A stretch of DNA of 64,000 nucleotides from Actinomycetaceae bacterium (GTDB taxonomy: Bacteria; Actinomycetota; Actinomycetes; Actinomycetales; Actinomycetaceae), in the NCBI GenBank assembly GCA_030524055.1, contig JAUNHH010000004.1:186001-250000 (forward strand), read 5' to 3'. Within the stretch, counting starts at the first letter, position 1. Each line of letters opens with the position of its first letter. Under the pieces are notes generated by a model. The model was given only the letters and a program-made list of their open reading frames with translations, did no database searches and was not told the DNA's origin. Positions 2,185 through 60,069 of the stretch are shown here, in pieces. Both the position numbers and the translations under genes were made by a program.

Positions 2185-3135
2185 ATGACCTATGATATTT
2201 CAACAATTGGCGAGGGGCAAATCCGTCTTACTTGCTTTAAAGGGGAGCGTCTTTCTAATGCCAATCAACTTCGAATGAGTGCTGCCTGTTCCGAAGCCAA
2301 TGTGTCAGGCTTATTGTCGCAACTTGGGCGTCGCGCATTATGGACATCAAAAATCCCGAAAGGGGAGTTAGCGACACGCATTATTCATGAGTACCGTTCC
2401 GTTGGAGTCGATGTCTCTAATGTCATCCTTTCCGAGGGCGGGCGTGCGGCTTTATATTTCATGGAGCCCGGAGAATATCCAATGCCTGCAAAGGTTAGCT
2501 ATGACCGAGAATATACGCCTTTCCGCGATATGCAGATCGAGGATTTTGACTGGGAGAAAATGCTTGACACGCGCCTTGTTTTCGTCACGGGAATTACTGC
2601 TGCATTAACCGAACATACGGCAAAAGTGATTACCCATTTCGTGGACCAGGCTCACGAAAGAGGAATTGATATTGCTCTCGACGTGAATTACCGCTCCCTT
2701 TTGTGGACCCCAGAAGAGGCGCGAGAAGTCCTCGAACCTATTGCACGGAAATCCTCCATCGTGTTTTGCTCGCGCCGCGACGGGCAAATCGTTTTCGGAT
2801 TGGACGAGGGCGGGGCGGACGTGTGCCCAGCGCTGCGTGACTTATTTGGAGTAAAAACCGTGGTCTCTACAGACCAGATTGATGGGGTCTACTATTCCGA
2901 CGCTGATGACGGAGAGAAGACCTTTGAGGTGACTCAAGTTCCTGTTCTTGATCGGCCCGGCGCTGGTGATGCCTTTGTTGCTGGTGTTCTCCACGGGTTC
3001 CTTGGTGGCGATGTTGTCCAAGGAATCCAATACGGCCAGCGAACAAGTGCCTTTGCTCTGACTCACTACGGGGATTTGACTCGAATCTCTGCCACCGAAC
3101 TTGATATCCCTACGACCACTGACATTATGCGCTGA
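2185..3135 (+). CDS. PfkB-family sugar kinase (KdgK-like)
   Basis: This is a ribokinase/PfkB-fold protein of 316 residues. The C-terminal signature DRPGAGDAFVAG holds the anion hole GAGD and the catalytic base Asp262. The N-terminal signature is weak: the usual GG-x-x-x-N reads AACSEAN. KdgK-like proteins phosphorylate keto-sugar acids such as 2-keto-3-deoxygluconate. In this operon, which has an MFS transporter and no PTS genes, the kinase is the obvious source of the phosphorylated intermediate. The substrate is unknown. An exact copy of the dispersed 12-mer lies inside the gene at 2804-2815, encoding part of DEGGAD. Confidence 0.83.
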   Translation: MTYDISTIGEGQIRLTCFKGERLSNANQLRMSAACSEANVSGLLSQLGRRALWTSKIPKGELATRIIHEYRSVGVDVSNVILSEGGRAALYFMEPGEYPMPAKVSYDREYTPFRDMQIEDFDWEKMLDTRLVFVTGITAALTEHTAKVITHFVDQAHERGIDIALDVNYRSLLWTPEEAREVLEPIARKSSIVFCSRRDGQIVFGLDEGGADVCPALRDLFGVKTVVSTDQIDGVYYSDADDGEKTFEVTQVPVLDRPGAGDAFVAGVLHGFLGGDVVQGIQYGQRTSAFALTHYGDLTRISATELDIPTTTDIMR

Positions 3136-3168
3136 TGCATATCTCATGCCCTAAGGAAGTGAAAGGTA

Positions 3169-4533
3169 ATGACTTCACAAACACATGGGCGCCAAACCGC
3201 CCTTGAACAAATTGACTCTCGCCCTCTGACAAAGAATCAGAAGAACCTTATTGCCCTGGTTATTATTGGCAATGTCTCCGAGTTCTTCGACATGTTCCTT
3301 ATTGGATTCGTCGTCTCACTCCTTATTAAGCCATGGAACCTGACGGGAACAGAAACGGGAATTATTCTTGCTTGTTCCGGCCTTGGAACCGTTATTGGCG
3401 CCATTATGTGGGGGCGACTAGCCGATAAGATGGGCCGTAAACGCGCATTCTTCTGGTGCGTATTGATCTTTACTGTCTTCACTATTGTTTCCGTATTCAC
3501 CCCTGACCGTGGGTGGATTATGCTCGCTGCCTTGCGTGTCCTCGTCGGTATTGGAGTGGGCGGACTCAATATTGTCTCGATTCCTTATGTCCAGGAATTT
3601 GTCCCCAGTAAACAGCGCGGATTACTGGCCGGACTTGGCTCCGTCTTTATTCCTCTTGGCTTGCTTTTAGGCGCAGTTGCCCAAAAGGCCTTCCATGAGG
3701 ATTGGCGTGTCCTGATTGCACTGGGTGGATTGCCCATCCTGTTGCTTCTGTGGTTGCGTTTGGTCCCAGAATCGCCACGTTTCCTTCTCTCGCAGGGTCG
3801 CACTCAAGAAGCTCGTGAGGCCCTCGCCTGGGCACTGGAGATTCCCGCCAATGACGTGGGCGAATTGCCGAAGGTCGAAGTTGGCCCCTCGGCCTCGTAT
3901 TCCGTGGTATTTTCCCGCTACTGGAAGTCCTTGTTGATCGTCACCCTGGGTTCTTTCAGCTTTATTCTCGGCTCATTCACCATTCAATCCTGGGGGCAAA
4001 CACTTCTCCAGGATGGCTATGGACTCAATCCCGATATGGTCGGCAACCTCTTTATTGGGGTTTCCCTCGCGGATCTCTTTGGACGATTGGGATCGGCTTG
4101 GCTCGCAGACCATTTGGGCCGCCGCTGGACAATGTTTAGTTTCGGTCTGATTGGTGCGGTGGGTTCACTGATTGTCGCTTTCTCCGCCCAATCTGGCCCG
4201 GGTGGATCCTGGATGATCTTCTTCATTGGCATTTTGATCGCCATGGCCTTTGGTGACGGTGCTTTCGGTATTCTCAATGCCTTCGGTGGTGAACAATTCC
4301 CGAATGAAGCACGCGGCACTGGCCTTGGATTGGGATATGGCATTGGTGCCACCGCCAAGATTTTTGGCCCGCTTATTATGGGCTGGATGATTGGCGGTAA
4401 TGCGGTGAAACAGGATGTCACCCTTCAAGCCGTATTCCCGGCCTTTATTTTCTTCGCCGCCCTTCTTGTGCTCGGCGGAATCATCTACCTCTTTGCTCGG
4501 GAAACAAAGGGGGAGTCTTTAGAGAAGATCTAA
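3169..4533 (+). CDS. MFS transporter, sugar/organic acid porter type
   Basis: The product is a 454-residue polytopic membrane protein with about 12 hydrophobic segments and classical MFS loop motifs, such as GRLADKMGRKRAF between helices 2 and 3 and its second-half copy LADHLGRRW. PESPRF after helix 6 is typical of the sugar porter and related families. The start is supported by AAGGAAGTG about 9 nt upstream. As last gene of the operon it probably imports the unphosphorylated sugar acid or lactone processed by the upstream enzymes. A strong hairpin follows at once. Confidence 0.88.
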   Translation: MTSQTHGRQTALEQIDSRPLTKNQKNLIALVIIGNVSEFFDMFLIGFVVSLLIKPWNLTGTETGIILACSGLGTVIGAIMWGRLADKMGRKRAFFWCVLIFTVFTIVSVFTPDRGWIMLAALRVLVGIGVGGLNIVSIPYVQEFVPSKQRGLLAGLGSVFIPLGLLLGAVAQKAFHEDWRVLIALGGLPILLLLWLRLVPESPRFLLSQGRTQEAREALAWALEIPANDVGELPKVEVGPSASYSVVFSRYWKSLLIVTLGSFSFILGSFTIQSWGQTLLQDGYGLNPDMVGNLFIGVSLADLFGRLGSAWLADHLGRRWTMFSFGLIGAVGSLIVAFSAQSGPGGSWMIFFIGILIAMAFGDGAFGILNAFGGEQFPNEARGTGLGLGYGIGATAKIFGPLIMGWMIGGNAVKQDVTLQAVFPAFIFFAALLVLGGIIYLFARETKGESLEKI

Positions 4534-4540
4534 AGGCGCC

Positions 4541-4597
4541 AGATACGGGGTGTGAAGATCGGTGGGGTCCGGGCCCACTACTTCACACCCCGTATCT
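4541..4597 (+). terminator. Terminator-like hairpin after the sugar-acid operon
   Basis: A 15-bp perfect inverted repeat has arms 4542-4556 and 4581-4595, with GATACGGGGTGTGAAG pairing with CTTCACACCCCGTATC. The loop is about 24 nt and the downstream flank reads TTTGCGTTTT. It sits just after the MFS stop codon. Confidence 0.75.
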
Positions 4598-6531: not shown

Positions 6532-6549
6532 GTTCCTTCACACATGCCG

Positions 6550-7028: not shown

Positions 7029-7081
7029 GCCCCGCCCTCGTGAATGACTGTCAGAAGAACGTTCAGCGCGAGGACGGGGCT
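7029..7081. terminator. Convergent terminator built from an inverted pair of the dispersed 12-mer
   Basis: GCCCCGCCCTCGT at 7029-7041 faces a near-complementary GCGAGGACGGGGC at 7068-7080. The pair sits between the convergent genes ending at 7009 and 7125 and could terminate both. Confidence 0.6.
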
Positions 7082-8546: not shown

Positions 8547-8845
8547 CTGAGTCCTTTCGCTTGAGTGGGCGTGGCGCCTCTGGTGCTTCATTGTCTTAAC
8601 GCCGCCGCGGCTGAAAATCTTCCGTGGCATGAGCCTCACAATTTGCGGGGGAGGTAGCGGGCGTTGGTCGAAGATCATGAACGAGGGCGGGGTGCGAGTG
8701 TGTGATGCCTGCTGTGCTGCACCAAACGGTCAAAGGGCGACATTTTTGCCCGAAAATCGGCTTTTTTGTCGCCCTTTGCACGTTTGGTGTCGTGAGACCC
8801 CCTTTTCCAGACCAGGGCCGGGCAGTGCTAATACTCAACAGACCT
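8547..8845. other. Intergenic region with one 12-mer copy and a long hairpin
   Basis: The spacer between the oxidoreductase start and the end of the ABC operon holds the oxidoreductase ribosome binding site, an isolated exact 12-mer copy at 8681-8692, and the hairpin at 8720-8789. No gene is apparent. Confidence 0.5.
8720..8789 (-). terminator. Long hairpin ending the siderophore operon
   Basis: Two 22-nt arms, 8721-8742 and 8767-8788, are complementary except for two positions. The loop is about 24 nt and rich in T and A runs. It lies 57 nt beyond the last operon stop (8846) and is suited to terminate the minus-strand transcript. Confidence 0.65.
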
Positions 8846-10594
8846 TTAACTGCCGTGGCCCGCCATCCAGGCTTCGGCATAACGGCCACCAGTGGCAAGA
8901 AGTTCGTCATGAGTGCCCTGTTCAATAATCCTTCCCTGGTCCATGACAATAATCCGTTGACAGAGCATCGCCTGACTCAGCCGATGGGCGATCACCAGCG
9001 CTGCCCTTCCCTGAATGACCCGCGCCGCTGTCTCTTCTAGGACCTCGGCCTCGTCACTACCTGCCTCGGCCGTCGCCTCATCTAAAATAACGAGTCGCGG
9101 ATTGGCCACCATTACTCGAGCCAAGGCTAACTGTTGTCCCTGAGCAGGGGAGAGGCTCATGCCACCGCTGCCCAACATTGTGTCGAGCCCATCTGGGGCA
9201 CAAACCAGAACAGTCGCTCCCAGTGTGTCCAGAATTGCCAGTAATTCATCATCGGTAGCATCAGCCGCCAATGTCAGGTTGTCGCGCAGGGACGAAGAAA
9301 ACACGTGTGTTTCCTGCGCAATCGTAAAGATCTCATTATTACGTAGGTGAGTGTGGCGCTTCCCAGTTTGTAGTGGAAAATGCCCGGCCAGCAGATTCGC
9401 CAGGGTGCTTTTCCCTGATCCGCTTACCCCCACTAGTGCCACATGTTCGTTATCGCGAATCAACAGATCCACGCCGCGGACTACCTCGGGGCCAGTAGGG
9501 TAGGAGAAATGTGCATTCCGTAATTCCACAAGGAACGAGGGCGGGGTCAGGTCTTTATCCACCTGCGCGTCGCCTGAGGAACGGTTGGTACCAGGGGCCT
9601 CCAACGCCGCACGTGACGCCTCAGACTTGTCCGCAAGCTCCACAACCCCAACGATTCTGCGAAGTGCCGTAGTTCCCTCTTGAAGCTCATCAGTAATCAT
9701 GAGGAACTCTGAAAGCGGACCCATAAGCGCCATAAAAAGGAGGGCGCCTGACAGGATTGTCCCCACGGACCCGCCGTCAATAGCGACCCATACGCCAATA
9801 GCGAGAACCGCGACCAAGCCAATGTACTCGATCATAATCAGACGGCCCGTGAGGATATTTGTGACAATACGGGTACGCATTGCCCAGCGGACATGCTCCC
9901 AACTGGCGGCACGAATCCGCTCAATCTGCCGTTGCTGAATACCAAAAGCAAGGACGGTATTTTCTGCGCGGAAGGTATCTAATAGGTGTTTTTCTCGCTG
10001 CGATTCGGCATTGCGTTCAGCCGCATAGGTGCGTGGCCCAGTGCGCATATACCAGGCCATAGTCAGGCCAAGAAGAGGAAGGAGGAGAGGAAGTATTAAG
10101 ATATAACGCGGATCCAAGATGCCCAAGCCAGAGGCCACTGTTATTCCCGATAAAGCCATTGAGATAGAACTGGGAAGCACATTGGGTAGCGAATTCCCCA
10201 CCAAATCAACATCATCAGAAAGGCGTGACAATAAATCTCCGTGAGATTCGTCGATGACATCGCGGGGGAGTTTCAAAGCGGCGCGAATAAAACGCGCACG
10301 AATATTCCCTAAAATCCGCTCTGCAATATGGCCGAGTAAGTAGGCCGACGACCAGGCCAAAACACCGTTAATAATAGCGACGATAATCAAGAGGGTAATG
10401 ACCCACCCTGGGGAAAACTCCTCCCTATTGATGAGGCGATCCGCCACCCACCCAACAAGAAGTGGGGCGACCAGAACGGTGAGTGCCTGGGCAATAAAAA
10501 GGCCTAATGCTACGAGCACACGAAGTTTTTGTGCCCGCAATTCTGTGGCAATAATACTGTAGGTGGAATGTGGGGCAGCTAAAGGCAGACTCAT
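8846..10594 (-). CDS. ABC exporter-fold half-transporter, catalytic subunit of a heterodimer
   Basis: This 582-residue protein has an N-terminal membrane domain of about six helices and a C-terminal nucleotide-binding domain. The ATPase has an intact Walker A (GVSGSGKST), Walker B with catalytic Glu (LVILDEAT) and H-loop His (IAHRLS), but its signature is degenerate (LSPAQ in place of LSGGQ). The start overlaps the preceding gene by 4 bp (ATGA). The partner encoded upstream has the opposite defects. In this siderophore operon an IrtAB-like role (siderophore import linked to a SIP reductase) is plausible; export is the alternative. Confidence 0.85.
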   Translation of the reverse strand: MSLPLAAPHSTYSIIATELRAQKLRVLVALGLFIAQALTVLVAPLLVGWVADRLINREEFSPGWVITLLIIVAIINGVLAWSSAYLLGHIAERILGNIRARFIRAALKLPRDVIDESHGDLLSRLSDDVDLVGNSLPNVLPSSISMALSGITVASGLGILDPRYILILPLLLPLLGLTMAWYMRTGPRTYAAERNAESQREKHLLDTFRAENTVLAFGIQQRQIERIRAASWEHVRWAMRTRIVTNILTGRLIMIEYIGLVAVLAIGVWVAIDGGSVGTILSGALLFMALMGPLSEFLMITDELQEGTTALRRIVGVVELADKSEASRAALEAPGTNRSSGDAQVDKDLTPPSFLVELRNAHFSYPTGPEVVRGVDLLIRDNEHVALVGVSGSGKSTLANLLAGHFPLQTGKRHTHLRNNEIFTIAQETHVFSSSLRDNLTLAADATDDELLAILDTLGATVLVCAPDGLDTMLGSGGMSLSPAQGQQLALARVMVANPRLVILDEATAEAGSDEAEVLEETAARVIQGRAALVIAHRLSQAMLCQRIIVMDQGRIIEQGTHDELLATGGRYAEAWMAGHGS

Positions 10595-18880: not shown

Positions 18881-18942
18881 CACGAGGGCGGGGCAGCGAT
18901 CACAGCACACCATCGTGTGGATTTCGCGCCCCGCCCTCGTGA
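18881..18942. terminator. Convergent terminator from an inverted 12-mer pair
   Basis: CACGAGGGCGGGGC at 18881-18894 pairs with GCCCCGCCCTCGTG at 18928-18941. It separates the AraC gene from the oppositely oriented epimerase gene; the right arm is followed by GAAGAAAAAG. Confidence 0.65.
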
Positions 18943-19858: not shown

Positions 19859-20398
19859 GGCTTTTCTCCTCTTAGTGGATGCGCGGGCGTCATTGCTTCA
19901 CAGTAGTGTCCCATATTTCAGGGGTTAAACGCAGGTCTAGAGCCCCCAAAAAGAAGGGATTAATCAGGGACGAGGGCGGGGCGTGTGCTGACTGAGGGTG
20001 GCGCTGGTGCCAGTGGCGAGTCCAGGCACGAATACTCAAGGCATAGTTTGTCGCTCAGGGCATACTTTGCGGCTCAAGGCACCGTTAAGTACTGATTTAA
20101 CGCTGCCTTGAGCGTGGAACTATGCCTTGAGGAAAGAACTATGCCTTGAGCACCGAACCCTGCCTTGAAGAAAAAGCGCTGCCTTGAGCCGCCGTTGTTC
20201 GGGCCCAAGAGTCATCAGGGTGAAAGCCACATGCTGGACATACGCCCAGGTGAGTACCTGTACCGTCAGGTGCGCGGTGGTGCCCAGCAATGGAGGCAAC
20301 CGGGCACCTGCGCTTGTGACGCGCTCGCGCCCCGCCCTCGTTACAAAAGATCATCCTGCGGAATGTCGGGCCGCAGCCAGCCGCCCCCTGAGAACCTA
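19859..20398. other. 540-bp intergenic region with unusual repeats
   Basis: This spacer holds two exact 12-mer copies (19970-19981 and, in reverse, 20330-20341) and the 19-bp inverted repeat array at 20030-20193. An in-frame upstream extension of the next gene from 20165 would run through the repeats and has no ribosome binding site, so I treat the whole interval as non-coding. Confidence 0.6.
20030..20193. repeat. Inverted array of 19-bp repeats (3 + 5 units)
   Basis: Core CTCAAGGCA lies at 20035, 20054 (one mismatch) and 20073. Its complement TGCCTTGAG lies at 20104, 20123, 20142, 20161 (last base differs) and 20180. Every step is exactly 19 nt. Consensus of the right-hand unit is AACTATGCCTTGAG plus 5 variable bases. 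The two halves are symmetric around about 20092, so a transcript could fold the three left units onto the first three right units. Confidence 0.85.
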
Positions 20399-25308: not shown

Positions 25309-25631
25309 CAGTCCTCTTTCCGTCAGTCTGTAGGTCCGTTTGTCGCGGGCCGTGAGGCATCGGTTGTGTGTACCCCCGGTGGGGGGCTGTCACCAGTGTG
25401 GATGAGAGAATGAGGGCGGGGCCAGAGATGAGATAAGGGGACCCTATGCCATATCTCTCAAGGGTGGAAAGGGGAGAATTGTCCTAGGACTTGCGTCCCA
25501 AAAGCTGTGAAAGTGCAAAGAGATGAGCTGCACATAATGCCAGCAACCGTACTGTGAGCGAATAGGTGACCGCAGGCAAACTCACCCCTAGAATCAGGGG
25601 AGAGCCCCGCCCTCGTCCATTAGGAGTCCGT
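25309..25631. promoter_or_regulatory. Divergent promoter region between pflB and hom
   Basis: This 323-bp region must hold promoters for both divergent genes, but I could not assign them with confidence. It includes a near copy of the 12-mer (25407, TGAGGGCGGGG), an exact reverse copy at 25605-25616, and the hom ribosome binding site AGGAG at 25622-25626. Confidence 0.45.
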
Positions 25632-30293: not shown

Positions 30294-30337
30294 AATAACG
30301 AGGGCGGGGCGCGAAAAGCGTCACCGCCCTCGTTATT
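30294..30337 (+). terminator. rho terminator formed by inverted 12-mer copies
   Basis: AATAACGAGGGCGG (30294-30307) pairs perfectly with CCGCCCTCGTTATT (30324-30337), with a short loop and trailing TT. It starts 3 nt after the rho stop. Confidence 0.8.
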
Positions 30338-30708: not shown

Positions 30709-30851
30709 CTCAACTTTAGGCGCCGGTGGCTGAATGCTACCGGCGCCGCTTTACATTTGCGCTCTGTATTTTTGATGGGCGCCCCGCCCTCGTATATTTC
30801 ATATTCTGCCTTCGGCTTTACGCTGCCCCCGGCCATGACGATAGGAATGTT

Positions 30852-35955: not shown

Positions 35956-37089
35956 ATGAGGGTCTACCTCCTTCTAATGCTGGTGGCGACTGGCCTGACC
36001 ACATTGCTGACGCCACTAGTGCGCTACCTGTGCATTAAATGGGGGATTGTGCCGCGCCTGCGTGCCCGCGACGTTCAGACGATTCCAGTACCGCGCCTGG
36101 GCGGTATTGCATTGACACTGTCATTTTTGCTGACAATGTTAATCGCCTCCCGTATCCCCTTTATGGCGCCCCTTTTTGCCACCTCTGTTCCGTGGGCGTT
36201 AATGGGGGGAGCGGCAGCAATGAGTATTCTCGGCGTCGTTGATGACCTGGTCGATTTAGATTGGCTGACAAAACTTTCCGGGCAGATTCTTATTGCAGGA
36301 TTAATGGGCCTAGGCGGAGTCCAATTAGTGTCACTGCCACTTTTCGGATTAACAATTGGCTCGTCGCGCCTGTCGCTGATCCTCACCATTTTAGTGATTA
36401 CCGCCATTATCAATGCGGTGAATTTTATCGACGGCTTAGATGGGTTGGCTTCCGGAATTGTTGGTATCGGTGCGGGCGCTTTCTTTATTTATTCCTATGT
36501 GCTCACACGAATAATGGGTGCACCCTCCTATGCCACAACTGCTTCCCTCGCTGTGATTACCCTGATGGGCGTATGTGCGGGATTCCTGTGGTTTAACTTC
36601 AACCCATCGTCGATCATGATGGGCGGCGGAGCGGAAACTCTTGGGCTTGTTCTTGCGGGCGCTGGCATTGTGGTCACAGGGCAAATTGACCCGTCCCTTT
36701 TAGGACAACAGCAACTCCTCGTTGGTCTTCTACCGATTCTTTTGCCGATTTCCGTGATTCTTATTCCCTTTGGGGATTTAGTGGTGGCGGCTGCACGGCG
36801 AATGGCCCGCGGGAAAAGCCCATTCCATGCAGATCGCTCGCATTTTCATGATGGCTTATTAGAGCGCGGTCATTCGCACCGTGGAGTGGTGTTGATTTTA
36901 TGGGCATGGACTGTTGTTGCCACGGTGCCCGCTGCCGCCCTACTAGTATTCGACTGGGTTCGTGTCCTCATTTTCTCCCTCCCCGCACTTATCGTGGTGA
37001 TTGGGCTGACAATGTGGGAGTTCCCGAAAGCAGAAACAAAGCCTGCAGCAGGCCATGAAGGAGACCGCGATGAGCAGCAATCCCATTGA
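35956..37089 (+). CDS. wecA: WecA/MraY-family undecaprenyl-phosphate sugar-1-phosphate transferase
   Basis: This is a 377-residue membrane protein with about 11 hydrophobic helices. The family's cytosolic motifs are visible: VDDLVDLDWLTKLSGQ, NFIDGLDGLASG and the His-rich HFHDGLLERGHSH. It transfers a GlcNAc-1-phosphate-like group to polyprenyl phosphate, the first step of a cell-wall glycan. In mycobacteria the equivalent gene (Rv1302) also precedes the ATP synthase operon. GGAG lies about 10 nt upstream of the start. Confidence 0.88.
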   Translation: MRVYLLLMLVATGLTTLLTPLVRYLCIKWGIVPRLRARDVQTIPVPRLGGIALTLSFLLTMLIASRIPFMAPLFATSVPWALMGGAAAMSILGVVDDLVDLDWLTKLSGQILIAGLMGLGGVQLVSLPLFGLTIGSSRLSLILTILVITAIINAVNFIDGLDGLASGIVGIGAGAFFIYSYVLTRIMGAPSYATTASLAVITLMGVCAGFLWFNFNPSSIMMGGGAETLGLVLAGAGIVVTGQIDPSLLGQQQLLVGLLPILLPISVILIPFGDLVVAAARRMARGKSPFHADRSHFHDGLLERGHSHRGVVLILWAWTVVATVPAAALLVFDWVRVLIFSLPALIVVIGLTMWEFPKAETKPAAGHEGDRDEQQSH

Positions 37090-37519
37090 CGAGGGCGGGG
37101 CAGCGCCCTCGTATATGCCAGCCTCATCTGCTTTTGTCCGAGCAACTGCCCGTCTTGCCCAGGTCCTGGTGCTCATTGGTGTCGTTTTAGCCTGTGTTGA
37201 ACTGGTGCTGACGGTGGCAGGCATTGGGCAGTGGAGTGCATTAGCACTGGCCCTGCCGCTCACCTTGGCATTGTGTCTGATCAAAGCGTGGTTTATTCGT
37301 CAGATTGGGCGCTCTCCCCACCTTCTTGTGGCCTGGGTGGGCGGAGGCTACATAGCGGCAGCGGGAATCGTTCTTGGTGGTGTAGTGGCCACTAACCTTT
37401 TGAATCTGCAGCCGCGCTTTGTTGGATTAAGCCTGATTGCCACCATTGTCTGCGTTCTGATTGCCGAACTTGCTGTTTTTATTCGCGCCCGAATCCCCGC
37501 TATTGACCCAGTGGAATAA
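37070..37519 (+). CDS. Small membrane protein before atpB (AtpI-like position)
   Basis: The 149-residue protein has four predicted membrane helices and no strong family motif. It stands where AtpI (Rv1303) is found before atpB. The start at 37070 is chosen because GAAGGAGA lies 5 nt upstream; this overlaps the wecA end by 20 bp. Its N-terminus (IDEGGAAPSY) is encoded by an exact 12-mer copy followed by an inverted partial copy (37089-37112), so the start of its mRNA can form a hairpin. Confidence 0.75.
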   Translation: MSSNPIDEGGAAPSYMPASSAFVRATARLAQVLVLIGVVLACVELVLTVAGIGQWSALALALPLTLALCLIKAWFIRQIGRSPHLLVAWVGGGYIAAAGIVLGGVVATNLLNLQPRFVGLSLIATIVCVLIAELAVFIRARIPAIDPVE

Positions 37520-38819: not shown

Positions 38820-38820
<1 letters not shown>

Positions 38821-39383
38821 TGACCACGATCTTTGCAGCAGCGGAGGAACAGGTCGGCGGTCTTGACGTCGTCCTGCCCCCGTTCTATGAGATTTTTTGG
38901 GCAGCATTCGCCCTACTTCTGATCGCCCTGGTGGGAGGGCGCGTTCTCCCGAAGATTTTTGCTCTTCTCGACGAACGTTCTCGCCAGATTGAAGAAGGTT
39001 TAGCTGCTGCCGAGAAAGCGCAAGAAGAAGCATCCCAGGCTGAGCGGGAGCGCGCAGAAACATTGCGTGAAGCAAATGTTGAGGCGCAGGCTATCCGTGA
39101 AAAAGCTGCTGAGGATGCACGCGGCATCGTCAATGCGGCCCGCACCGAGGCCCAAGAGGAAGCTGCCCGTATTCTTGAAACTGCTCAGCGTCAGATTTTG
39201 GCTGAAAAACAAGCTGCTGAAATCTCGTTGCGTACTGACGTTGGTCTGCTCGCTACCGAGTTGGCTGAAAAGATCGTTGGGGAACATCTCAAAGACAGGG
39301 AACTTACCTCCCGCGTTGTTGATCGTTTCCTTGACGAATTGGAATCGGAATCAGTGACGAGGGCGGGGGAGACATCCTCATGA
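38820..39383 (+). CDS. atpF: ATP synthase Fo subunit b
   Basis: Subunit b is the peripheral stalk: one N-terminal membrane helix (about 21-40) followed by a long Ala/Glu/Arg-rich coiled coil. Its 187 residues are standard. It starts in the atpE stop and overlaps atpH by 4 bp. An exact 12-mer copy (39357-39368) lies at the very 3' end and encodes its variable tail (TRAGE). Confidence 0.94.
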
Positions 39384-40204
39384 CCGCACTGCTAGATTCG
39401 ATCCCCACCGCTGCGCGCAACGCATTAGAAGACGCTCTCACCAGCGGTGATGGTGTCAATGCCATGCGCGTTGGTGAGGACCTGTTTGGCATTGCCGATC
39501 TTATTGACACAGGGGATCCCCGTCTTCGCCGCTCGTTGACTGACCCGGCTCGACCAGACAGTGACAAAGCAGATTTGGTTGAGGCAGCCTTCGGCTCAGA
39601 GGTGACCCCCACAACGGTGAGGGTTCTTCAGGCGCTGACTGGAGCACATTGGAGCAGGCCAGACGAACTTGGCGGAGCAGTCGAAGTTCTTGGCGCTCAT
39701 GCCGTTTTGCTTGACGCAAAGCGCTCCGGCAGCCTGTCAACTGTTGAAGAGGAACTTTTCCAGGTCCAGGAACTTCTGGCAGATCATCGGGAACTGCGGG
39801 TCCGCCTATCTGACTTAGGTGACACCACCGCGCATGACAGAGCAAATTTTGCTCAGAGTCTCCTTGCTGAGCATTTGTCGCCATGGACAATCCGCTTGGT
39901 TCGTCGAGCTGTTGGACGGAGTTCTCACGGTCGCCTCTTAGCGCGTCTGCGAAGCTTCGCTGAAGCCGCCGCCCTTGTGGAAAACCGTGTTTTAGTGACA
40001 GTAGAAACAGCTGCGCCATTTACGGATACGCAACTATCCCGCCTCCGCCAGATCCTCACCCGGCGCCTGGGAACAGATGTGACTCTTGCTGTTTCTACCG
40101 ACCCCGCCCTCGTTGGTGGATTCCGCCTCCGTGCGGACGAAGAATCTATGGACGCTTCGGTAGCCACCCGCTTTAACGAAGTACGCCGAACATTGGTGGG
40201 TTAA
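39380..40204 (+). CDS. atpH: ATP synthase F1 subunit delta
   Basis: At 274 residues this delta is much longer than the about 180 of E. coli, which is usual for many actinobacteria outside mycobacteria. The C-terminal half holds the conserved VTVETAAPFTDTQLSRL and LRRIL-like segments (LRQILTRRLG). It connects F1 to the b stalk. A reverse 12-mer copy at 40102-40113 encodes TDPALVG. Confidence 0.92.
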   Translation: MTALLDSIPTAARNALEDALTSGDGVNAMRVGEDLFGIADLIDTGDPRLRRSLTDPARPDSDKADLVEAAFGSEVTPTTVRVLQALTGAHWSRPDELGGAVEVLGAHAVLLDAKRSGSLSTVEEELFQVQELLADHRELRVRLSDLGDTTAHDRANFAQSLLAEHLSPWTIRLVRRAVGRSSHGRLLARLRSFAEAAALVENRVLVTVETAAPFTDTQLSRLRQILTRRLGTDVTLAVSTDPALVGGFRLRADEESMDASVATRFNEVRRTLVG

Positions 40205-45064: not shown

Positions 45065-45087
45065 AGGGACGAGGAGCGTTTCAATAG

Positions 45088-45099
45088 ACGAGGGCGGGG
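45088..45099 (+). repeat. Isolated exact copy of the dispersed 12-mer
   Basis: ACGAGGGCGGGG lies in the gap between the DUF2550 gene and nucS, with no complementary partner close by. Confidence 0.8.
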
Positions 45100-48878: not shown

Positions 48879-50861
48879 GTGGAGCGCGTAAAGAACTATC
48901 TCGCGGCAATCATTGCGTTAGTGCTAGCGGGTGTGTGCGTCCTAGTGGGTATCCTCGCTTTTACGGTGTGGCGACCTGCTCAACAGGTGCACGCTAGCGT
49001 TGTGCCTTCGCAGCCAATTGTGATGACCCGCGATGGAGTGATCAACCTTATTGACGCGGAGGTGACCGTTACCGCCACCACGACGGATGGGTCACCTGTT
49101 CAGCTCGCTTTAGGAGCAACAACTGACGTTGTCGGGTGGATTGGATCCGACCCCTACACCGAAGTGATTGGTGTGGCCGCTGACCGACAGAACCTCAAAT
49201 TCGAGGATCATCCTGGTGACGCTAGTCAATCGGGTGGTGCAGGTGGCGCTGATGGCGCGCAATCCGGTGGGCCAGTTCTCGCCAGTGACCTATGGGCTGA
49301 TCATGCCTCTGGAGATGGCAAGGCAGAGTTGACCATTGCTGACCCGCAACAGGGCCGCTCTATTATTGCCGTTTCTGATGGTCAGAGCGCCAATATCAAT
49401 CTGACGATTGCCTGGAATTCCAATCAGCCGAATCTCCTGGCCATTATTGCCTTTGTTCTTGGCGCTCTTCTTGCCATTGTCGGCATCGTCCTGATCGTCC
49501 TAAAGAACCGTCAACTCAATGACTCTCGCCGTGCTGACCAAGCTCAGCGCCTGCAGGCACGCAAGAGCGCTGATGTCACCGAAACTGCCCACATTGATCC
49601 CACTGAGGTGGCGGCCATGGGTGCGGGTGCCGCTGGAGCGGTGGGCGCTGGCGCCCTTGGTGGTGCACTAGCAGGTGGACTCGACTCTTCGGATGAACCA
49701 GAGGTGAGCGAAGCCCCCGTTCCTGTTCGCAATAGCGCCCTGCACCACACAGGACTGCCACATCTGTCATCTGATTCTCTTTACACCATCGAAGAAGACA
49801 CCGTTGAGGATGAGTCGCCGGTTGATGACTTCGGCCCCGCCAGCGATTCCGTAGACGGGTTGGATGACCCCACTGGTTATGGGCAGGCCCCAGCACCGGT
49901 GGAATCGTCCTTTATTGCTGAACCTGGCGATTGGCCCACTCGAATTGCTCCGTCACGTCAACGTGCCTGGGATGATCCGTTGGTCTCTGCTGGACTTGAT
50001 GAAGAACCTGCCGAGCAGGCTCTAGGCGCTTCCTTTGAGGATGACTCCTTTGAGGATGATGGCGATGCCACTGCCGTGTGGAGCCCGGACTTTGCCGCGT
50101 CAGTCAACAGCGCGGTGGGCGATGGTGAGAATGACGTTCTTGAGGAGGAGGACCCCGCCCTCGTTGAGGAAGACACTTTTGAGTCTTTCGCAGATGAGGA
50201 CGATAATTCTGCCTTTGACGAAACCGATAACGTCGAAACCGAGGCTGATTCCTCCTACGGACACTTCGAGGCTTCAGCTTTCGCTCCGGCTGCGACCGAT
50301 GAGGCCGAAGAAGAGGATCTCATTGACGAGGACGAGGCAGCCGATGAGGATGACCTCTCTCTTGGCTCTGCCCAACGCAGTGGTTTGACTGTGCCACCAA
50401 TTGCTGGCCCCTCCTCGTGGACTATCACTCCGCAGCCTGATGCTGAAGAGGCACCCGTGGCTGAAGACGCCTGGAATGCCGATGACCTTGAGGACGACGA
50501 ACCCGCTGAAATCACCTCCGAGACCTTCGGAATCGGTACGGCCCGCCTTGGCCGCCACGCCGCGGAATCCTCTTCCGATCAGGACCCGCCCGAGCGTGTC
50601 CCCATGGATACCGGGGTGATTGATCTCTCGGCAATCCGTCCAGGTGCTGCTCTCCCGACTCGTCGCGCCCTACGCGAAGCACGCGAACGCGGAGAAGGCC
50701 GATTTGTGATTGATGGCCACGAGTTCAATACTGGCCTCATCCCGGTGATTCCACCTCCGGCGACAACTGAAGCGCGCACACGCAGCGAAGCTTCTGACAA
50801 GGGGTCCTGGGGATCGATTCTGTCCCTGTGGAAGCGTAAGGATGAAGGAGACCATCGATGA
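48879..50861 (+). CDS. Two-helix membrane protein with long acidic region
   Basis: I do not recognise this 660-residue protein. It has a first membrane helix at about 8-28, an external domain of about 150 residues, and a second helix at about 185-210 (AIIAFVLGALLAIVGIVLIV). A long cytoplasmic Asp/Glu-rich, probably disordered region follows. A short conserved-looking end (LPTRRALREARERGEGRF, then NTGLIPVIPP) resembles tails seen in other actinobacterial membrane proteins. The GTG at 48879 has AGGAGA 6 nt upstream, better than the GTG at 48873. It overlaps the lipoprotein gene by 4 bp. Confidence 0.78.
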   Translation: MERVKNYLAAIIALVLAGVCVLVGILAFTVWRPAQQVHASVVPSQPIVMTRDGVINLIDAEVTVTATTTDGSPVQLALGATTDVVGWIGSDPYTEVIGVAADRQNLKFEDHPGDASQSGGAGGADGAQSGGPVLASDLWADHASGDGKAELTIADPQQGRSIIAVSDGQSANINLTIAWNSNQPNLLAIIAFVLGALLAIVGIVLIVLKNRQLNDSRRADQAQRLQARKSADVTETAHIDPTEVAAMGAGAAGAVGAGALGGALAGGLDSSDEPEVSEAPVPVRNSALHHTGLPHLSSDSLYTIEEDTVEDESPVDDFGPASDSVDGLDDPTGYGQAPAPVESSFIAEPGDWPTRIAPSRQRAWDDPLVSAGLDEEPAEQALGASFEDDSFEDDGDATAVWSPDFAASVNSAVGDGENDVLEEEDPALVEEDTFESFADEDDNSAFDETDNVETEADSSYGHFEASAFAPAATDEAEEEDLIDEDEAADEDDLSLGSAQRSGLTVPPIAGPSSWTITPQPDAEEAPVAEDAWNADDLEDDEPAEITSETFGIGTARLGRHAAESSSDQDPPERVPMDTGVIDLSAIRPGAALPTRRALREARERGEGRFVIDGHEFNTGLIPVIPPPATTEARTRSEASDKGSWGSILSLWKRKDEGDHR

Positions 50862-51982: not shown

Positions 51983-52837
51983 GTGACTCTGCCCGAGTCA
52001 GTGGCGGGCCTGCCCGCAAATGCTGCCCCCACATCCGCCCCGCAAGAATCTGAACCTGAGGTGACCCTCAATGTTCCTCTTGTCACAGACGCGACGGAAG
52101 CCACCTTTAATGATGTGGTTTCAACGTCTCGGGCAGTGCCAGTGGTCATCCTTTTATGGAGTTCACGCACCCTAGAATCGCGGGAAGCAATCACCACTTT
52201 GGAAGACCTGGCCAGGGAAATGTCTGGCCGTTTCCAACTGGTCAAGATTGATGCGGATACCTCTCCTGATATTGTCCGTGCCTTCCAGGTTCAGGCTCTG
52301 CCCACAGTGGTGGCGCTGGTAGGTGGGCGTCCCATCCCCCTCTTCCAAGGAGTGGCTGCCAAGGAACAGATCCGCCCCGTTTTTGAGGAGCTCCTGCAGG
52401 CTGCCGCACAGATGGGTGTGACAGCGCGTGTGGCTGTGGCTGAAGAAGATATTGCCGAGCCTATTCCCGACGAGCATCTCCCTGCTATGGCATTGGAGGA
52501 AGAAGGAGACCTTGAGGGGGCACGAGCCGCCTGGGAAAAGGTCGTCAATCTGAATCCTCGCGACGAGAAAGCCAAAACCGAATTGGCGCGCATTAGCCTG
52601 CTGCTACGTAGCGCCGAAGCGGACTCATCTGATCCTCATGGGCAAGCTGATGCGCTTTTCGCCAGTGGAGATCACGCGGCAGCTTTCGATTTGCTGCTGG
52701 GTGCCATGGCGCAGACCACCGATTCTGACGAGCGTGACGCTTTGCGGACCCGTCTGTTGGACCTGTTCCGTATTGCGGGGTCCACCGATGAGGTCAAGGT
52801 GGCGCGGAAACGCTTAACGACGTTGCTCATGATTTAA
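51983..52837 (+). CDS. Thioredoxin-fold/TPR protein (CnoX/YbbN-like)
   Basis: The 284-residue protein has an N-terminal thioredoxin fold (VILLWSSRTLES, VKIDADTSPDIVRAFQVQALPTVV) and C-terminal helical repeats (GDLEGARAAWEKVVNLNPRDEKAKTEL). Where thioredoxins have CxxC it reads SSRTLES, so it cannot act as a disulfide reductase. CnoX-type proteins act as chaperedoxins. Mycobacteria have a thioredoxin-like gene near glgB (Rv1324), in agreement with the position. AGGAGGA precedes the GTG start. Confidence 0.83.
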   Translation: MTLPESVAGLPANAAPTSAPQESEPEVTLNVPLVTDATEATFNDVVSTSRAVPVVILLWSSRTLESREAITTLEDLAREMSGRFQLVKIDADTSPDIVRAFQVQALPTVVALVGGRPIPLFQGVAAKEQIRPVFEELLQAAAQMGVTARVAVAEEDIAEPIPDEHLPAMALEEEGDLEGARAAWEKVVNLNPRDEKAKTELARISLLLRSAEADSSDPHGQADALFASGDHAAAFDLLLGAMAQTTDSDERDALRTRLLDLFRIAGSTDEVKVARKRLTTLLMI

Positions 52838-52902
52838 CGAGGGCGGGGCGCCGGCGTATGGTGGCCGCGCTATTTTTGCGGGGTTCTCGCTGAATAACTG
52901 CC

Positions 52903-52982: not shown

Positions 52983-53390
52983 GACAAAGCGCCGCGAGGA
53001 CGCGCTTTTGGCGGTGAGTTCTCGTTGTGGCGGCGGGTTGTCTATTGGAAACACTCATTCGGCTCTAGTGGCCTGTGCACATGCGCGTGTTGTAGCCGGC
53101 AAAGGTGACAAACCGCTGCGAGGACGCGCTTTATAAAGGCGGACCCCATCTTGGTGGCGGGTTGTCCGTGAGGAGTTCTGGTCTGGAATTTCTGACCTGC
53201 GCAGATACGGCCACAGAAACTATCTAGGCTGACAAAGCGCCGCGAGGACGCATTTCCGAGCAGCAATTGTTGTTGTGGACGCGGTTTGTCAATTGGGGCT
53301 ATTGGCCTGGAAATGGCAACCTGCATCAATAGGTGGCCCCGCCCTCGTCCATCAATACACACCGCCGCGAGGGCGTGCTTTTGGCGGCGG
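52983..53390. repeat. Tandem array of 60-nt palindromic units with 124-nt period
   Basis: Units at 52983-53042, 53107-53166 and 53231-53290 are each exactly 60 nt and start exactly 124 nt apart. Each begins GACAAA and ends TTGTC, with GCCGCGAGGACGC-like sequence after the start and GCGGGTTGTC-like sequence at the end, so the ends pair. A fourth, partial copy starts near 53356. The 64-nt spacers are only weakly alike. The period is not a multiple of three, so a coding repeat is unlikely. Confidence 0.85.
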
Positions 53391-55691: not shown

Positions 55692-57026
55692 TCATGGTGA
55701 GAGGCAAAGTCGTGTCAAAGCGTCCAGTGGAATATCGATCCAATCGGGACGCATCCGCTGCTCATAGCGTATTTCGTAGCAGGTTTTCTCGATAAGAAGT
55801 GCCCGCAAAATTCTCGATTCATTCTCGGCGAGGCCACCTGGGCCCGCCCATCCGTGAAGAAAAGGGAGCGCAGTGTGCTCATGCCACCACTGCGGCGCCG
55901 CTATTTCAGGGATCTTCCCCTCAGGGGACTTTAGGCCCGCTGTGCGTTGGGCATAGCCATAGGCGTAGTCAAAGGAACGGAGCATCCCAGCGACGTCTTT
56001 CACAGCGAAATCAGGCGAGCGTCGCTGCGCTAAAGGCCGTAAAGGTTCGCCCTCAAAATCGACAATATGCCAGGTGGAAGCCCCATCAGTGAGAAGGGTT
56101 TGCCCCAGATGGTAATCCCCATGGATACGGATTGGCCGAGGCAGGTCGTCAAGGTGGCCAACGTCAGCAACGAGTGCATGCGCATTATCAACGAGGGCGG
56201 GGTCAAGAGGAATATCTCGCGCCACCATGGTGATCTGCTCATGAATGCGGGCCGCGAAACGCTGCGCATTCAGAGCCGGAGCCCCGCCCTCGTCAATGGA
56301 TGACAGAGGGAAAGAATCCCCCAGGATCGTATGCATGTCTCGGGTGACGCGGCCAAGCTCAAAAGACAGGGCAGAAAGGTCACTACCTGTTAGCGCCGCG
56401 TCGCAGTAATAGGCCCACCCATCGCGGGCGCCATCAAGATAATCCCATGCGCATGTGGCCAGCGCTGGGCCATCGGGCAGATCCACCTCGGTGCTGACCC
56501 GAAGCGCCGGAGTATGCGGCCACCGCGCTCGGGTCAATGCGCCGCAAAGCTCGACTTCGGGATGCGTCCCCGCCGTGAGCGTCCGATACACCTTAAGGAA
56601 AAGGGGCGTCGGCTGGGTGGGGATCAGCAGGGAAGTATTGGATTGTTCGCCACCCACCAGTGTCGCGGCTTCACATGCTGCCACGAGATCACCACTGCCA
56701 CCCAAGGAAGGCTCAACCTGGAGGGCACGCGCGGCCCACTCGGCTCGCCACAGAGGGTGGGAAGGGCCGTCATACAGAAAATCCTGCCCACAGCGGCCAA
56801 TCGGGGCAGGGGAGGTGAGGGCATTCGGGGAAAGAAGAAGAGGAATATGAACGAGGGCGGAGCCGGCTGCCACCACAAGGGTGACACTTTGATGTCCCCC
56901 CACCTGCCTCCACTGGTGCCACACACATGACAGCGAAGTGGAGGCGGTGGCAGGACACCACCGCTGCGAGCGCAACCACGGATCAATAGCCTCAAGGAGG
57001 GCAGTGGCCGTCGGCGAACTCATCAC
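55692..57026 (-). CDS. mak: Maltokinase
   Basis: The 444-residue kinase of the aminoglycoside-phosphotransferase fold makes maltose 1-phosphate, the GlgE substrate. Visible motifs are the catalytic loop IRIHGDYHLGQTL and the metal-binding DFEGEPLRPLAQRRSPDFAVKD. The order glgE-mak-glgB is typical for actinobacteria. The start is GTG at 57026 or ATG at 57023. Two 12-mer copies in opposite orientation (56191, 56282) lie inside the gene. Confidence 0.9.
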   Translation of the reverse strand: MMSSPTATALLEAIDPWLRSQRWCPATASTSLSCVWHQWRQVGGHQSVTLVVAAGSALVHIPLLLSPNALTSPAPIGRCGQDFLYDGPSHPLWRAEWAARALQVEPSLGGSGDLVAACEAATLVGGEQSNTSLLIPTQPTPLFLKVYRTLTAGTHPEVELCGALTRARWPHTPALRVSTEVDLPDGPALATCAWDYLDGARDGWAYYCDAALTGSDLSALSFELGRVTRDMHTILGDSFPLSSIDEGGAPALNAQRFAARIHEQITMVARDIPLDPALVDNAHALVADVGHLDDLPRPIRIHGDYHLGQTLLTDGASTWHIVDFEGEPLRPLAQRRSPDFAVKDVAGMLRSFDYAYGYAQRTAGLKSPEGKIPEIAAPQWWHEHTALPFLHGWAGPGGLAENESRILRALLIEKTCYEIRYEQRMRPDWIDIPLDALTRLCLSP

Positions 57027-59090: not shown

Positions 59091-59137
59091 AAGGCCAGCC
59101 TAATGGTCGCGGCGCGGTGATGTGGCCAGATGATTTT

Positions 59138-59908
59138 TTAGACAGCAATCCCAAAGACATGGCCAATACCGTAGGTTAAGGCCATTGCTGCTGCTCCACC
59201 CACAATGAGGCGCGCCGTTGCGCGAAGTTTCGGTGCGCCCCCTAGGGCAGCACTAATCCAGCCTGTCAGGCCTAAGGCAATAATCACCGAAATAAAGGTT
59301 GCCGGAATACGCAGTGGTGGCGGCAGGAGCAGCATTGTCAGGAGCGGCAGAAGCGCACCTAAAAGGAAAGCGCAGAAAGAAGAAAAGGCAGCTGCCCACG
59401 GATTCGTTAAATCGTCAGGGTCGATTTGGTGTTCGACACTGAGGTGGGCTTCTAAGGCATTATTTTCGCTGAGTTCTGTGGCGACGCGAGCGGCGGTTTC
59501 TTCACTGAGTCCTTTATTTTGCCAAAGGTGCGCGAGGCGATGGAGTTCCCCCGTGGGATTAGTTGCTAACGCTTCTTCTTGGCGGTGCAGAAGAACTTTT
59601 TCTGTATCGCGTTGGGTTGAGACAGAAACATATTCGCCCACTGACATCGACAGGGCAGCTGAGGCAATACCTGCTGCGCCAGCAATCGCAATAGCCGCTG
59701 TATTTTCTGGTGCGGCAGCGGCCACACCAATAAGGAGTCCAGAAATAGAGACAATACCGTCATTTGCCCCTAAAACTCCGGCACGCAGCCAATTTAGGCG
59801 TGACGATAAGGAAATATCGCGGGAATCGCTAGAGCGTGGAGGAGCGATTCTCGTGAGGGATTGACCGGCGTGAAATAACGCTGAATAGCCAGAAGAAATA
59901 CTGCTCAT
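59138..59908 (-). CDS. VIT/CCC1-family iron or manganese transporter
   Basis: The 256-residue membrane protein has the VIT1 signature LRAGVLGANDGIVSISGLLIGVA in its first helix, about five helices in all, and a hydrophilic Glu-rich loop after helix 2. Bacterial homologues export or store Fe2+ or Mn2+. It is close to the glycogen genes but functionally separate. Confidence 0.88.
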   Translation of the reverse strand: MSSISSGYSALFHAGQSLTRIAPPRSSDSRDISLSSRLNWLRAGVLGANDGIVSISGLLIGVAAAAPENTAAIAIAGAAGIASAALSMSVGEYVSVSTQRDTEKVLLHRQEEALATNPTGELHRLAHLWQNKGLSEETAARVATELSENNALEAHLSVEHQIDPDDLTNPWAAAFSSFCAFLLGALLPLLTMLLLPPPLRIPATFISVIIALGLTGWISAALGGAPKLRATARLIVGGAAAMALTYGIGHVFGIAV

Positions 59909-60029
59909 GTCAGGGACAATACGCCCATAATTCAGTGATTTCCACGAAGGGCAGCCACCCCTTTAAGGGGACAGGGCAGGCTTGTCGGTGGTGAATTAGG
60001 GGTGGCTTAGTGTCAGGGAATAAAGAGCA

Positions 60030-60069
60030 GCCCCGCCCTCGTGAATAATAAAAAGAACGAGGGCGGGGC
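60030..60069 (-). terminator. trpS terminator from an inverted 12-mer pair
   Basis: GCCCCGCCCTCGT (60030-60042) and ACGAGGGCGGGGC (60057-60069) are perfect 13-nt complements around a 14-nt A-rich loop, 39 nt beyond the trpS stop. Confidence 0.75.

Follow-up and report, generated by a model that had tools for sequence, protein, structure and literature searches.

A dispersed 12-mer in an Actinomycetaceae genome is distributed like a DNA uptake sequence

Results

Copies of the 12-mer in the window

The window is a stretch of 64,000 nucleotides (64 kb) from the draft genome of an Actinomycetaceae bacterium of the same genus as Schaalia odontolytica. The 12-mer ACGAGGGCGGGG was counted on both strands of the window. 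A first-pass annotation had claimed at least 25 exact copies; 25 were found, at the positions it had given, and 100 dinucleotide shuffles of the window contained none. With a simple gene caller, 10 of the 25 copies are genic (one of them by overlap with only the last base of the gene) and 15 are intergenic, in agreement with the earlier claim that both gaps and core genes carry the motif. With earlier starts, a few of the 15 fall in longer open reading frames (ORFs).

Genic copies are located in a PfkB-family kinase gene (2185-3135; copy at 2804..2815, + strand), an ABC transporter gene on the minus strand (8846-10594; 9535..9546, +), prfA (30726-31955; 31408..31419, +), atpF (38820-39383; 39357..39368, +), atpH (39380-40204; 40102..40113, -) and the gene at 48945-50861 (50153..50164, -). 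A phosphotransferase-family gene on the minus strand holds two copies in opposite orientations, at 56191..56202 (+) and 56282..56293 (-). The host genes named in the first-pass annotation were thus correctly identified: prfA has the PCRF and RF-1 domains, the atpF, atpH and PfkB-family assignments hold, and the phosphotransferase-family gene is compatible with a maltokinase. The copy at 37089..37100 (+) lies at the junction of genes 35977-37089 and 37055-37519 and has an inverted partner core, of shorter length, no more than 22 bases away. The copy at 52837..52848 (+) overlaps the 3' end of the gene at 51983-52837 by the final base of that gene.

The copies at 7030..7041 (-), 8681..8692 (+) and 19970..19981 (+) are intergenic by the caller. 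Those at 20330..20341 (-), 25605..25616 (-) and 45088..45099 (+) are likewise intergenic by the caller and lie within the longest ORFs 20165-21163, 25566-26939 and 44991-45920, respectively, the last directly past a gene end at 45064. The copy at 34735..34746 (-), also intergenic by the caller, falls within the uncalled ORF 34348-34752. That at 30782..30793 (-) lies shortly before the prfA start called at 30852, or in prfA if the start is 30726. The remaining copies have inverted partners. Two pairs consist of full 12-mers, 18882..18893 (+) with 18929..18940 (-) and 60031..60042 (-) with 60057..60068 (+), with hairpins of -48.6 and -32.2 kcal/mol, respectively. The copy at 30298..30309 (+), directly past the gene end at 30290, has a partner core at about 30325 (-35.3 kcal/mol), and the intergenic copy at 33175..33186 (+) has one at about 33155 (-28.9 kcal/mol). 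For the intergenic copy at 53337..53348 (-), the partner core lies within 40 bases.

Copy number, consensus and spacing across the genome

The first-pass annotation had named a genome-wide count near chance as contrary to its proposal. The 3.03-Mb genome (3,034,260 bases) contains 1001 copies of ACGAGGGCGGGG, far above chance, with 500 on the forward and 501 on the reverse strand; the reversed pattern, used as a control, occurs once. Strong over-representation on both strands is what is seen with the DNA uptake sequences DUS and USS. In a 432-kb sample (three contigs, 14% of the draft genome), a 13-mer was observed 89 times against 0.04 expected. The word CGAGGGCG occurs 198 times in genes against 31 in a synonymous-codon shuffle, and 89 times between genes against a Markov expectation of 3.5. 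The synonymous shuffles and the intergenic counts rule out an artefact of codon usage in this genome.

The fuller motif is ATNNACGAGGGCGGGGC, which is non-palindromic by direct inspection. Its CGAGG part is nearly intolerant of change: in the 432-kb sample, single changes inside CGAGG were almost absent (0-1 per variant), and the common changes were at positions 7, 11 and 13 of the 13-mer. An invariant core with tolerant positions is shared with DUS and USS. A 9-mer form was found 121 times in 250 kb, 62 times in 120 kb and 31 times in 62 kb of the three sampled contigs, with strand counts of 63/58, 31/31 and 18/13. The fraction on the G-rich strand was 0.486 in this sample of a draft genome whose origin was not located. 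The sampled contigs thus showed no orientation bias to replication, a point on which the first-pass annotation had suggested a check and on which the motif again resembles DUS and USS. A polar motif such as Chi or KOPS was rejected, since the sampled contigs have no strand skew.

The even spread noted in the first-pass annotation was borne out: gaps between 9-mers in the sample are more regular than under random placement (coefficient of variation 0.73 versus 0.96, z -3.2). One notable motif desert lies over an RHS gene. The 12-mer is about seven times denser between genes (0.98/kb) than within them (0.14/kb). Genic 12-mers are found on both gene strands (32 sense, 20 antisense), and 136 of the 214 9-mers lie wholly within genes, in both orientations.

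Dialects in related genomes

The motif is present in sister species, where the first-pass annotation had proposed to look for it, in dialect form. The form CGAGG-C-CG was found in ten sister genomes with 119 to 426 exact 12-mers each; further sister species have CGAGG-A-CG or a shorter form. These CGAGG[G/C/A]CG dialects have flanks in common. The C-dialect word is ACGAGGCCGGGG, the dialect of S. odontolytica, and a G-dialect counterpart exists. When the C and G forms were placed on a tree of Atp proteins (23 labelled of 30 rows, one locus), 2 changes were required against 7.8 after shuffling. On this one-locus tree, the two forms follow phylogeny as DUS and USS dialects do. Outside the genus, no genome of those searched in the family and order had more than 30 copies.

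Motif specificity is weaker in GC-rich relatives. For CGAGGNCG, G028 has 285 copies of the A form, 262 of the G form and 250 of the T form, against 149-156 in a codon shuffle, and the intergenic DNA of G004 is enriched in the A, C and G forms alike. In G009, 42 of 43 9-mer copies are genic, and samples of G018 and G030 showed little excess. In GC-rich relatives, G009 among them, a large share of the excess may be due to codon usage.

The spacing and the dialects bear on two further explanations. The copies, spread over the whole chromosome, could be intracellular sites to which a sequence-specific protein of the nucleoid, or one that organises the chromosome, binds. The even spacing, the similar 9-mer density in the three sampled contigs and the intergenic preference would also fit a chromosome-packing site. 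Against this, many copies are genic on either strand, the motif is non-palindromic with clade dialects, and the sampled contigs show no strand polarity of the KOPS or Chi kind. We know of no such protein in this group, and consider this explanation unlikely. The motif could also resemble HIP1 of cyanobacteria, as a word that is repeated very many times and has a role linked to methylation or an unknown one. HIP1 is comparably over-represented genome-wide, in genes and gaps; however, it is palindromic, whereas the present motif is no palindrome, combines an invariant core with variable positions and differs in dialect between lineages. A HIP1-like role seems rather improbable.

Inverted pairs

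The first-pass annotation had stated that the motif often forms inverted pairs used as terminators. Hairpin-forming pairs do exist, but "often" is too strong: at most 40 of the 287 sites of an 8-base core in the 432-kb sample belong to the 20 pairs of inverted neighbours no more than 80 bases apart. Half of the intergenic pairs (8 of 16 in the sample) lie between convergent genes. Terminator-like hairpins at inverted pairs are thus real, though a minority, and these pairs may act in termination.

It could be supposed that the motif as a whole is half of a transcription terminator, or an RNA element, and that selection for hairpins caused it to spread. Among pairs of 9-mer neighbours no more than 120 bases apart, 20 are inverted and 1 has both members on the same strand, the hairpins at pairs are strong, and the merged density is 2.1/kb in convergent gaps against 1.0/kb in tandem and divergent gaps. 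The small share of paired core sites and the 9-mers lying wholly within genes in either orientation, however, already make this explanation disfavoured, and we regard it as very improbable.

Flanks and origin of the sites

The flanks of the copies are unrelated beyond AT and C. Homology beyond the motif, as in MITE or REP elements, was not found, and the copies do not sit within longer homologous mobile elements, an outcome that the first-pass annotation had named as contrary to a short genome-wide signal. In comparison with a sister genome, the motif itself contains no gap at 77 of the 84 genic sites that could be aligned, and 18 of these 77 have the same peptide in places at which the sister has no motif. 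The sites thus arise by substitution. When two flanking residues were added on each side, a gap was present in 10 of 84 sites against 65 of 2020 random places; the sites thus favour variable loops.

These facts, together with the excess that survives synonymous shuffles and holds in intergenic DNA, already refute for the window genome the least probable of the explanations, namely a MITE or small mobile palindrome (the latter raised in the first-pass annotation), or else an artefact of composition or codon usage. In GC-rich relatives the core is mostly in one reading frame and all CGAGGNCG forms are raised, so that part of the excess there is coding, and the artefact reading is possible for G009 and some other such relatives. 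Uptake sequences should be scarce in foreign DNA; a prophage search with the tyrosine recombinase family PF00589 gave only 2 matches, both Xer-like, and no prophage.

Competence and pilus genes

The competence genes whose presence was in question after the first-pass annotation were found: the genome has comEA, comEC and dprA together with two tad/Flp clusters. ComEA and ComEC pass the Pfam cut-offs for their main domains. Their scores fall short of the NCBIfam cut-offs: ComEA reaches 69 of the 152 bits set for comE and ComEC 71 of the 190 for ComEC/Rec2. The second TadA is likewise below its NCBIfam cut-off (267 of 373). In the genus, ComEC was found in 33 of 35 genomes and TadA in 34 of 35. 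Their presence is non-discriminating, because all 32 good genomes have both whatever the strength of the motif. The second tad cluster is absent in five genomes, of which the three sampled (G010, G016 and G022) keep a C-type core. Many bacteria have com and tad genes, including some with no known motif, and a ComEC match was obtained in Corynebacterium glutamicum of the control set. A search of the window genome for the type IVa pilin domain N_methyl (PF07963) gave no match, and a ComP-type receptor is therefore not expected. The filament genes seen are of the tad/Flp type, unlike the type IVa minor pilin ComP that is the receptor of Neisseriaceae DUS.

Discussion

The analysis supports the proposal of the first-pass annotation that the motif is distributed as in Neisseria and Pasteurellaceae: dialects and com and tad genes are present, strand bias is absent from the sampled contigs, and the outcomes contrary to the proposal did not appear. 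The strongest new evidence is the dialects. Judged from these sequence patterns, the motif probably marks an uptake-sequence system in Actinomycetaceae that is of the same kind as DUS and USS, with competence, sequence-specific uptake and a receptor as its presumed parts.

Such a system might work as follows. Fragments carrying ATNNACGAGGGCGGGGC or the dialect of the clade would be preferred by a DNA-binding component of the transformation machinery, for which a tad/Flp pilin or minor pilin and ComEA are the likeliest candidates. The preferred fragments would enter via ComEC and then recombine. Uptake bias combined with homologous recombination would slowly enrich the motif and even out its spacing, and this drive may be the cause of the distribution observed. 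CGAGG, which hardly varies, would serve as the contact core, the dialect positions would co-vary with the receptor, and some inverted pairs may have been reused as terminator hairpins.

Some Gram-negative bacteria recognise the DNA of their own kind by 'self' tags in natural transformation. To our knowledge, genomically enriched uptake sequences are limited to two diderm families, Neisseriaceae and Pasteurellaceae, and a system of this kind would be the first known in Gram-positive bacteria. No actinobacterial report of such a motif was found in the open-licence literature searched. It seems reasonably likely that the motif represents a third, independently evolved DNA-uptake-sequence system, genus-wide with clade dialects around CGAGG[N]CG and reaching other Actinomycetaceae, and that its reader is a tad/Flp pilus or ComEA, in place of the minor pilin of type IVa.

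If this is true, the motif would form a barrier, based on mate recognition, between species of Schaalia and Actinomyces, and a dialect-bearing monoderm counterpart would mean that DNA self-tagging had a further origin, with another kind of filament. Competence would be predicted, and dialect-tagged DNA could provide a genetic route into Actinomycetaceae. Dialect and pilin sequence would form paired data for finding the receptor.

Comparison with known systems

The USS of Pasteurellaceae consist of a core and a weaker AT-rich flank. They are genome-wide repeats with the consensus AAGTGCGGT, according to PMC13020248. The present motif has a similar layout, is likewise repeated across the genome and, on that consensus, is unrelated in sequence. 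The USS receptor is given as a minor pilin, by prediction only, in PMC12616744.

According to PMC3630211 and PMC13020248, the DUS of Neisseriaceae are motifs of 10-12 bases in hundreds to thousands of copies, with a short invariant core CTG and clade dialects, one of which has a one-base insertion; AT-DUS is named for its two-base 5' extension (both PMC3630211). Motif length, copy scale, invariant core, clade dialects and the two-base 5' extension are thus similar to what was found here. Unlike the DUS, the present motif has an unrelated sequence, a monoderm actinobacterial host, a genome with no PF07963 pilin match and a putative uptake role, and its copies are fewer (1001 12-mers against about 1900 10-mers in N. 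meningitidis). PMC13020248 places the uptake motifs of both families, DUS and USS, also in terminators.

HIP1 is similar in that one short word is extremely over-represented. According to PMC1939737, it is palindromic, and its extended form includes one site for a methyltransferase and one for a nuclease; it differs in this from the non-palindromic motif described here.

The text of PMC4322843 on Micrococcus luteus makes no mention of 'uptake sequence' or 'uptake signal'. It describes this actinobacterium as naturally transformable in a tad/Flp-dependent manner, with comEA, comEC, dprA and two tad clusters, the same set of genes as in the genome analysed here.

Abundance, placement and spacing

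The first-pass annotation described the 12-mer ACGAGGGCGGGG as highly over-represented, and the counts bore this out. The window holds 25 copies, against none in 100 dinucleotide shuffles, and the genome (3,034,260 bases in 47 contigs) holds 1001, of which 500 are forward and 501 reverse. The same word read backwards, taken as a control, occurs once. Finer analysis was done on a 432,227-base sample (14%) of this genome, made up of C4 in full, C46:60001-180000 and C3:1-250000, which includes the window. An order-3 Markov model predicted 0.12 copies of the 12-mer and 6.4 of the 9-mer ACGAGGGCG in the sample, where 115 and 214 were seen. With genes taken from our own simple caller, 61 of the sampled 12-mers are intergenic (0.98/kb), 52 genic (0.14/kb; 32 sense, 20 antisense) and two at boundaries.

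We consider it fairly probable that the motif is a DNA uptake sequence of the kind known from Neisseriaceae (DUS) and Pasteurellaceae (USS). The obvious rival is a binding site that acts inside the cell. When strand bias was checked, the 9-mer showed no preference for the G-rich strand (fraction 0.486), and its strand counts in the three sampled contigs were 63/58, 31/31 and 18/13. In the part consulted of a 2007 analysis, the lack of orientation bias in known uptake motifs was held against intracellular roles (PMC1939737), and such bias is absent here too. The same part describes the spacing of the known motifs as less even than compaction sites need (PMC1939737). Here, however, gaps between 9-mers are evener than random (CV 0.73 versus 0.96, sd 0.07; z -3.2), and the intracellular site therefore keeps more room. 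In this test copies less than 120 bases apart were merged and random placement preserved the genic and intergenic numbers; the comparison is approximate, with 190 gaps observed after merging and 179 simulated on average.

The longest stretch of the sample free of the 8-base core CGAGGGCG spans 9.3 kb (L100:1430-10750, equal to C46:121430-130750). Most of a 1878-aa RHS-repeat gene falls within it, as do two clp protease genes and some small genes that gave no Pfam match.

Genic core sites number 197, and for 113 of them the sister samples gave no relative that spans the site at 50% identity. A mobile element was rejected, since 77 of the 84 alignable sites are gap-free within the motif and seven are gapped; at 18 of the 77 a sister without the motif has the same peptide. 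With two residues added on each side, gaps were found at 10 of 84 sites versus 65 of 2020 random places, and loops tolerant of insertion are therefore somewhat preferred. Codon usage was likewise rejected as the cause in this genome, as the sampled genes hold 198 copies of the core where synonymous-codon shuffles leave 31 (sd 6), and the intergenic DNA holds 89 where 3.5 are expected.

Anatomy of the motif

The 214 sampled copies were aligned on ACGAGGGCG. Upstream, A stands at -4 in 56% and T at -3 in 52%; downstream, G fills the next three positions in 86, 64 and 78%, followed by C in 59%, and the flanks farther out carry little information. Intergenic copies show a sharper consensus, AT(T)N-ACGAGGGCGGGGC. 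The 13-mer ACGAGGGCGGGGC has 89 exact copies in the 432,227-base sample. Its variants with one change within CGAGG are each present 0 or 1 times, and single changes are common at positions 7 (25 in total), 11 (21), 13 (26) and 1 (12), with fewer than 0.1 expected for each variant. Such a sharp core, surrounded by variants that are tolerated, is the trace that would be expected from a sequence-reading protein.

Spread and dialects

By its closest relatives in AtpG, the window belongs to the genus of Schaalia odontolytica (G006), which also includes, among others, genomes matched to Actinomyces culturomici (G004), A. provencensis (G015) and S. vaccimaxillae (G034). Across the 35 genomes of the genus, exact 12-mer counts were 1001 in the own genome, then 190, 157, 135, 108, 93, 41, 39, 29, 23, 21, 20 and 17; the other 22 have at most 11 each, with zero in six. 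Among 213 genomes of the family, none outside the genus exceeds 19 copies. In a set of 396 genomes taken from the order, ACGAGGNCGGGGC occurs 964 times in the own genome, 245 to 323 times in five members of the Schaalia odontolytica clade, 31 times in G007, and at most 30 times in any genome outside the genus. A further look at words in family members comprised 27 small samples, most of 20 kb and only some with a codon control; a CGAGG[A/G]CG word is within the five top 8-mers in 7 of 27 outside the genus. In small samples, G186 has 20 copies of CGAGGACG versus 1.5 expected and 16 of CGAGGGCG versus 1.4, and two Gleimia loci have 5 and 6 copies of such a word versus 0.3. Four loci from MAGs (L022, L024, L025, L032) also have one among their five top 8-mers.

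Sister species carry the motif in altered dialect forms. Words in excess were sought in stretches of 20 to 400 kb from 24 of the other 34 genus genomes, and at 15 more loci of 20 kb from named relatives, and CGAGG[A/C/G/T]CG was compared with synonymous shuffles in genes and with intergenic expectation. Besides the own genome (89/3.5, intergenic observed/expected), the G form is raised in A. provencensis (G015, 37/3.1), G028 (28/6.7), G011 (10/2.4) and S. vaccimaxillae (G034, 7/0.8). The C form is raised in S. odontolytica (G006, 24/1.3), G027 (20/0.9), G013 (16/1.5), G010 (14/0.8) and G005 (12/1.0), and is mostly genic in G016 (39/4) and G022 (44/8). G025 has the A form (7/0.4 intergenic, 37/6 in genes), and G033 a form shorter by one base, ACGAGGCG (19/2.4 genic, 3 intergenic). 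The pattern is not clean throughout: the G018 and G030 samples showed little excess of dialect words, and 42 of the 43 9-mers of G009 are genic. G028 is GC-rich, and its genes hold 285 copies of the A form, 262 of the G form and 250 of the T form versus 149-156 in the codon shuffle; between genes of A. culturomici (G004) there is an excess of the A form (25/6.3), the C form (31/10.4) and the G form (31/9.9) alike. For these two genomes longer words are decisive.

The C-form 12-mer ACGAGGCCGGGG occurs 119 to 426 times in ten genomes (G001, G005, G006, G013, G018, G020, G021, G023, G024, G027), which have 0 to 2 copies of its reversed control and 3 to 10 of the G-form 12-mer. A. culturomici has both (190 G form, 185 C form), and the own genome has 167 copies of the C form. 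In G006, G027 and G005, A stands at -4 in 42-50% of intergenic copies, as in the own genome, and well-sampled C genomes have GG or GGGC downstream, resembling the own-genome flanks; the downstream flank of A. provencensis differs, favouring GACC.

A tree of AtpH, AtpA and AtpG, from one locus, covered 30 of the 35 genomes, labelled 13 C and 10 G, the other 7 having no label or a different type; labels came from 12-mer counts for G001, G018, G020, G023, G024 and G031, and from a weak excess for G002. The C and G labels require 2 changes versus 7.8 in shuffles, none of 500 being as low. The C form falls in two clades, having arisen there or been kept. The partner of the own genome is G028 (bootstrap 93), followed by G029 and G033. 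Such clade-wise change of dialect would fit mate recognition more readily than an intracellular housekeeping site.

Other repeats were met in these relatives. In A. culturomici (L127-L136), CCGCCAAAC forms intergenic clusters, its copies often spaced by 19 bases (e.g. 80053, 111517, 130267 and 170423 of the joined stretch), and AGTGTGCGAT recurs every 94 bases; both are unrelated to the motif. A. provencensis (L137-L141) has AACAGAGCGGAC arrays of 23-base spacing (e.g. 25774-25912 and 49277-49346 of the joined stretch), with 22 of 22 copies intergenic. Intergenic iteron-like arrays of GGATAGGTTA, often 19 bases apart, lie in the S. odontolytica clade (L163 and L164 of G013, L187 of G027). In another array, at about 13.3-14.0 kb of L201 (G002:C13), CCATAAGG is repeated ten times at intervals of about 74 bases.

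Inverted pairs

Inverted pairs had been said to serve often as terminators. In the own-genome sample, 9-mer neighbours at most 120 bases apart form 20 inverted pairs and one same-strand pair; A. provencensis differs (9 inverted, 8 same-strand). The core forms 20 inverted neighbour pairs at most 80 bases apart, 4 genic and 16 not, and 8 of the latter separate convergent genes. With near copies merged, the core reaches 2.14/kb where the flanking genes converge, as against 0.99/kb in both tandem and divergent gaps. Four inverted pairs of the window fold at -28.9 to -48.6 kcal/mol (z -4.6 to -8.5). Because of these pair counts, densities and hairpin energies, a putative terminator role is plausible for a minority of copies; the hairpins held up, and "often" was too strong.

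Competence and pilus genes

ComEA and ComEC, which had been proposed for checking, were found in the own genome, together with DprA (C41:35334) and two tad clusters. ComEA carries SLBB and helix-hairpin-helix domains and is directly followed by ComEC (L101:2466-4064; 532 aa, Competence domain). Both are above Pfam cut-offs and below those of NCBIfam (comE 69/152 bits, ComEC/Rec2 71/190). The Pfam scan showed no C-terminal metallo-beta-lactamase domain in this ComEC. One tad cluster (L151, on C19) has TadA and a DUF4244 pilin; the other (L152, on C44) has TadA (267 of the 373 bits of the NCBIfam cut-off), TadE and TadG-like genes. No N_methyl pilin was found in the own genome. ComEC is present in 33 of the 35 genus genomes, the two without it being 70% and 88% complete, and TadA in 34. 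The second tad copy is absent from the small genomes G010, G016, G019, G022 and G029, although each of them has a completeness of 96% or more.

According to the portion consulted of a study of Micrococcus luteus, ComEC is needed for transformation, as are genes from each of the two tad clusters, and ComEA, ComEC and DprA were the sole competence candidates found by similarity; "uptake sequence" and "uptake signal" have no match in that paper (PMC4322843).

Comparison with known uptake sequences

We found no actinobacterial motif of this kind described in the open-licence papers searched. The likeness to uptake sequences drawn in the first-pass annotation agrees with the distribution, as judged by copy number, dialects and core. 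In close parallel to DUS, the motif has a high copy number, an invariant core and clade dialects, and a minority of copies form pairs at putative terminators. The last trait would be shared with both known families, which in some species lie in up to 22% and 37% of terminators, according to part of one paper (PMC13020248). As described in part of another, the DUS of Neisseriaceae has dialects by clade, one of them an indel dialect (PMC3630211), and the one-base-shorter form of G033 is its parallel here.
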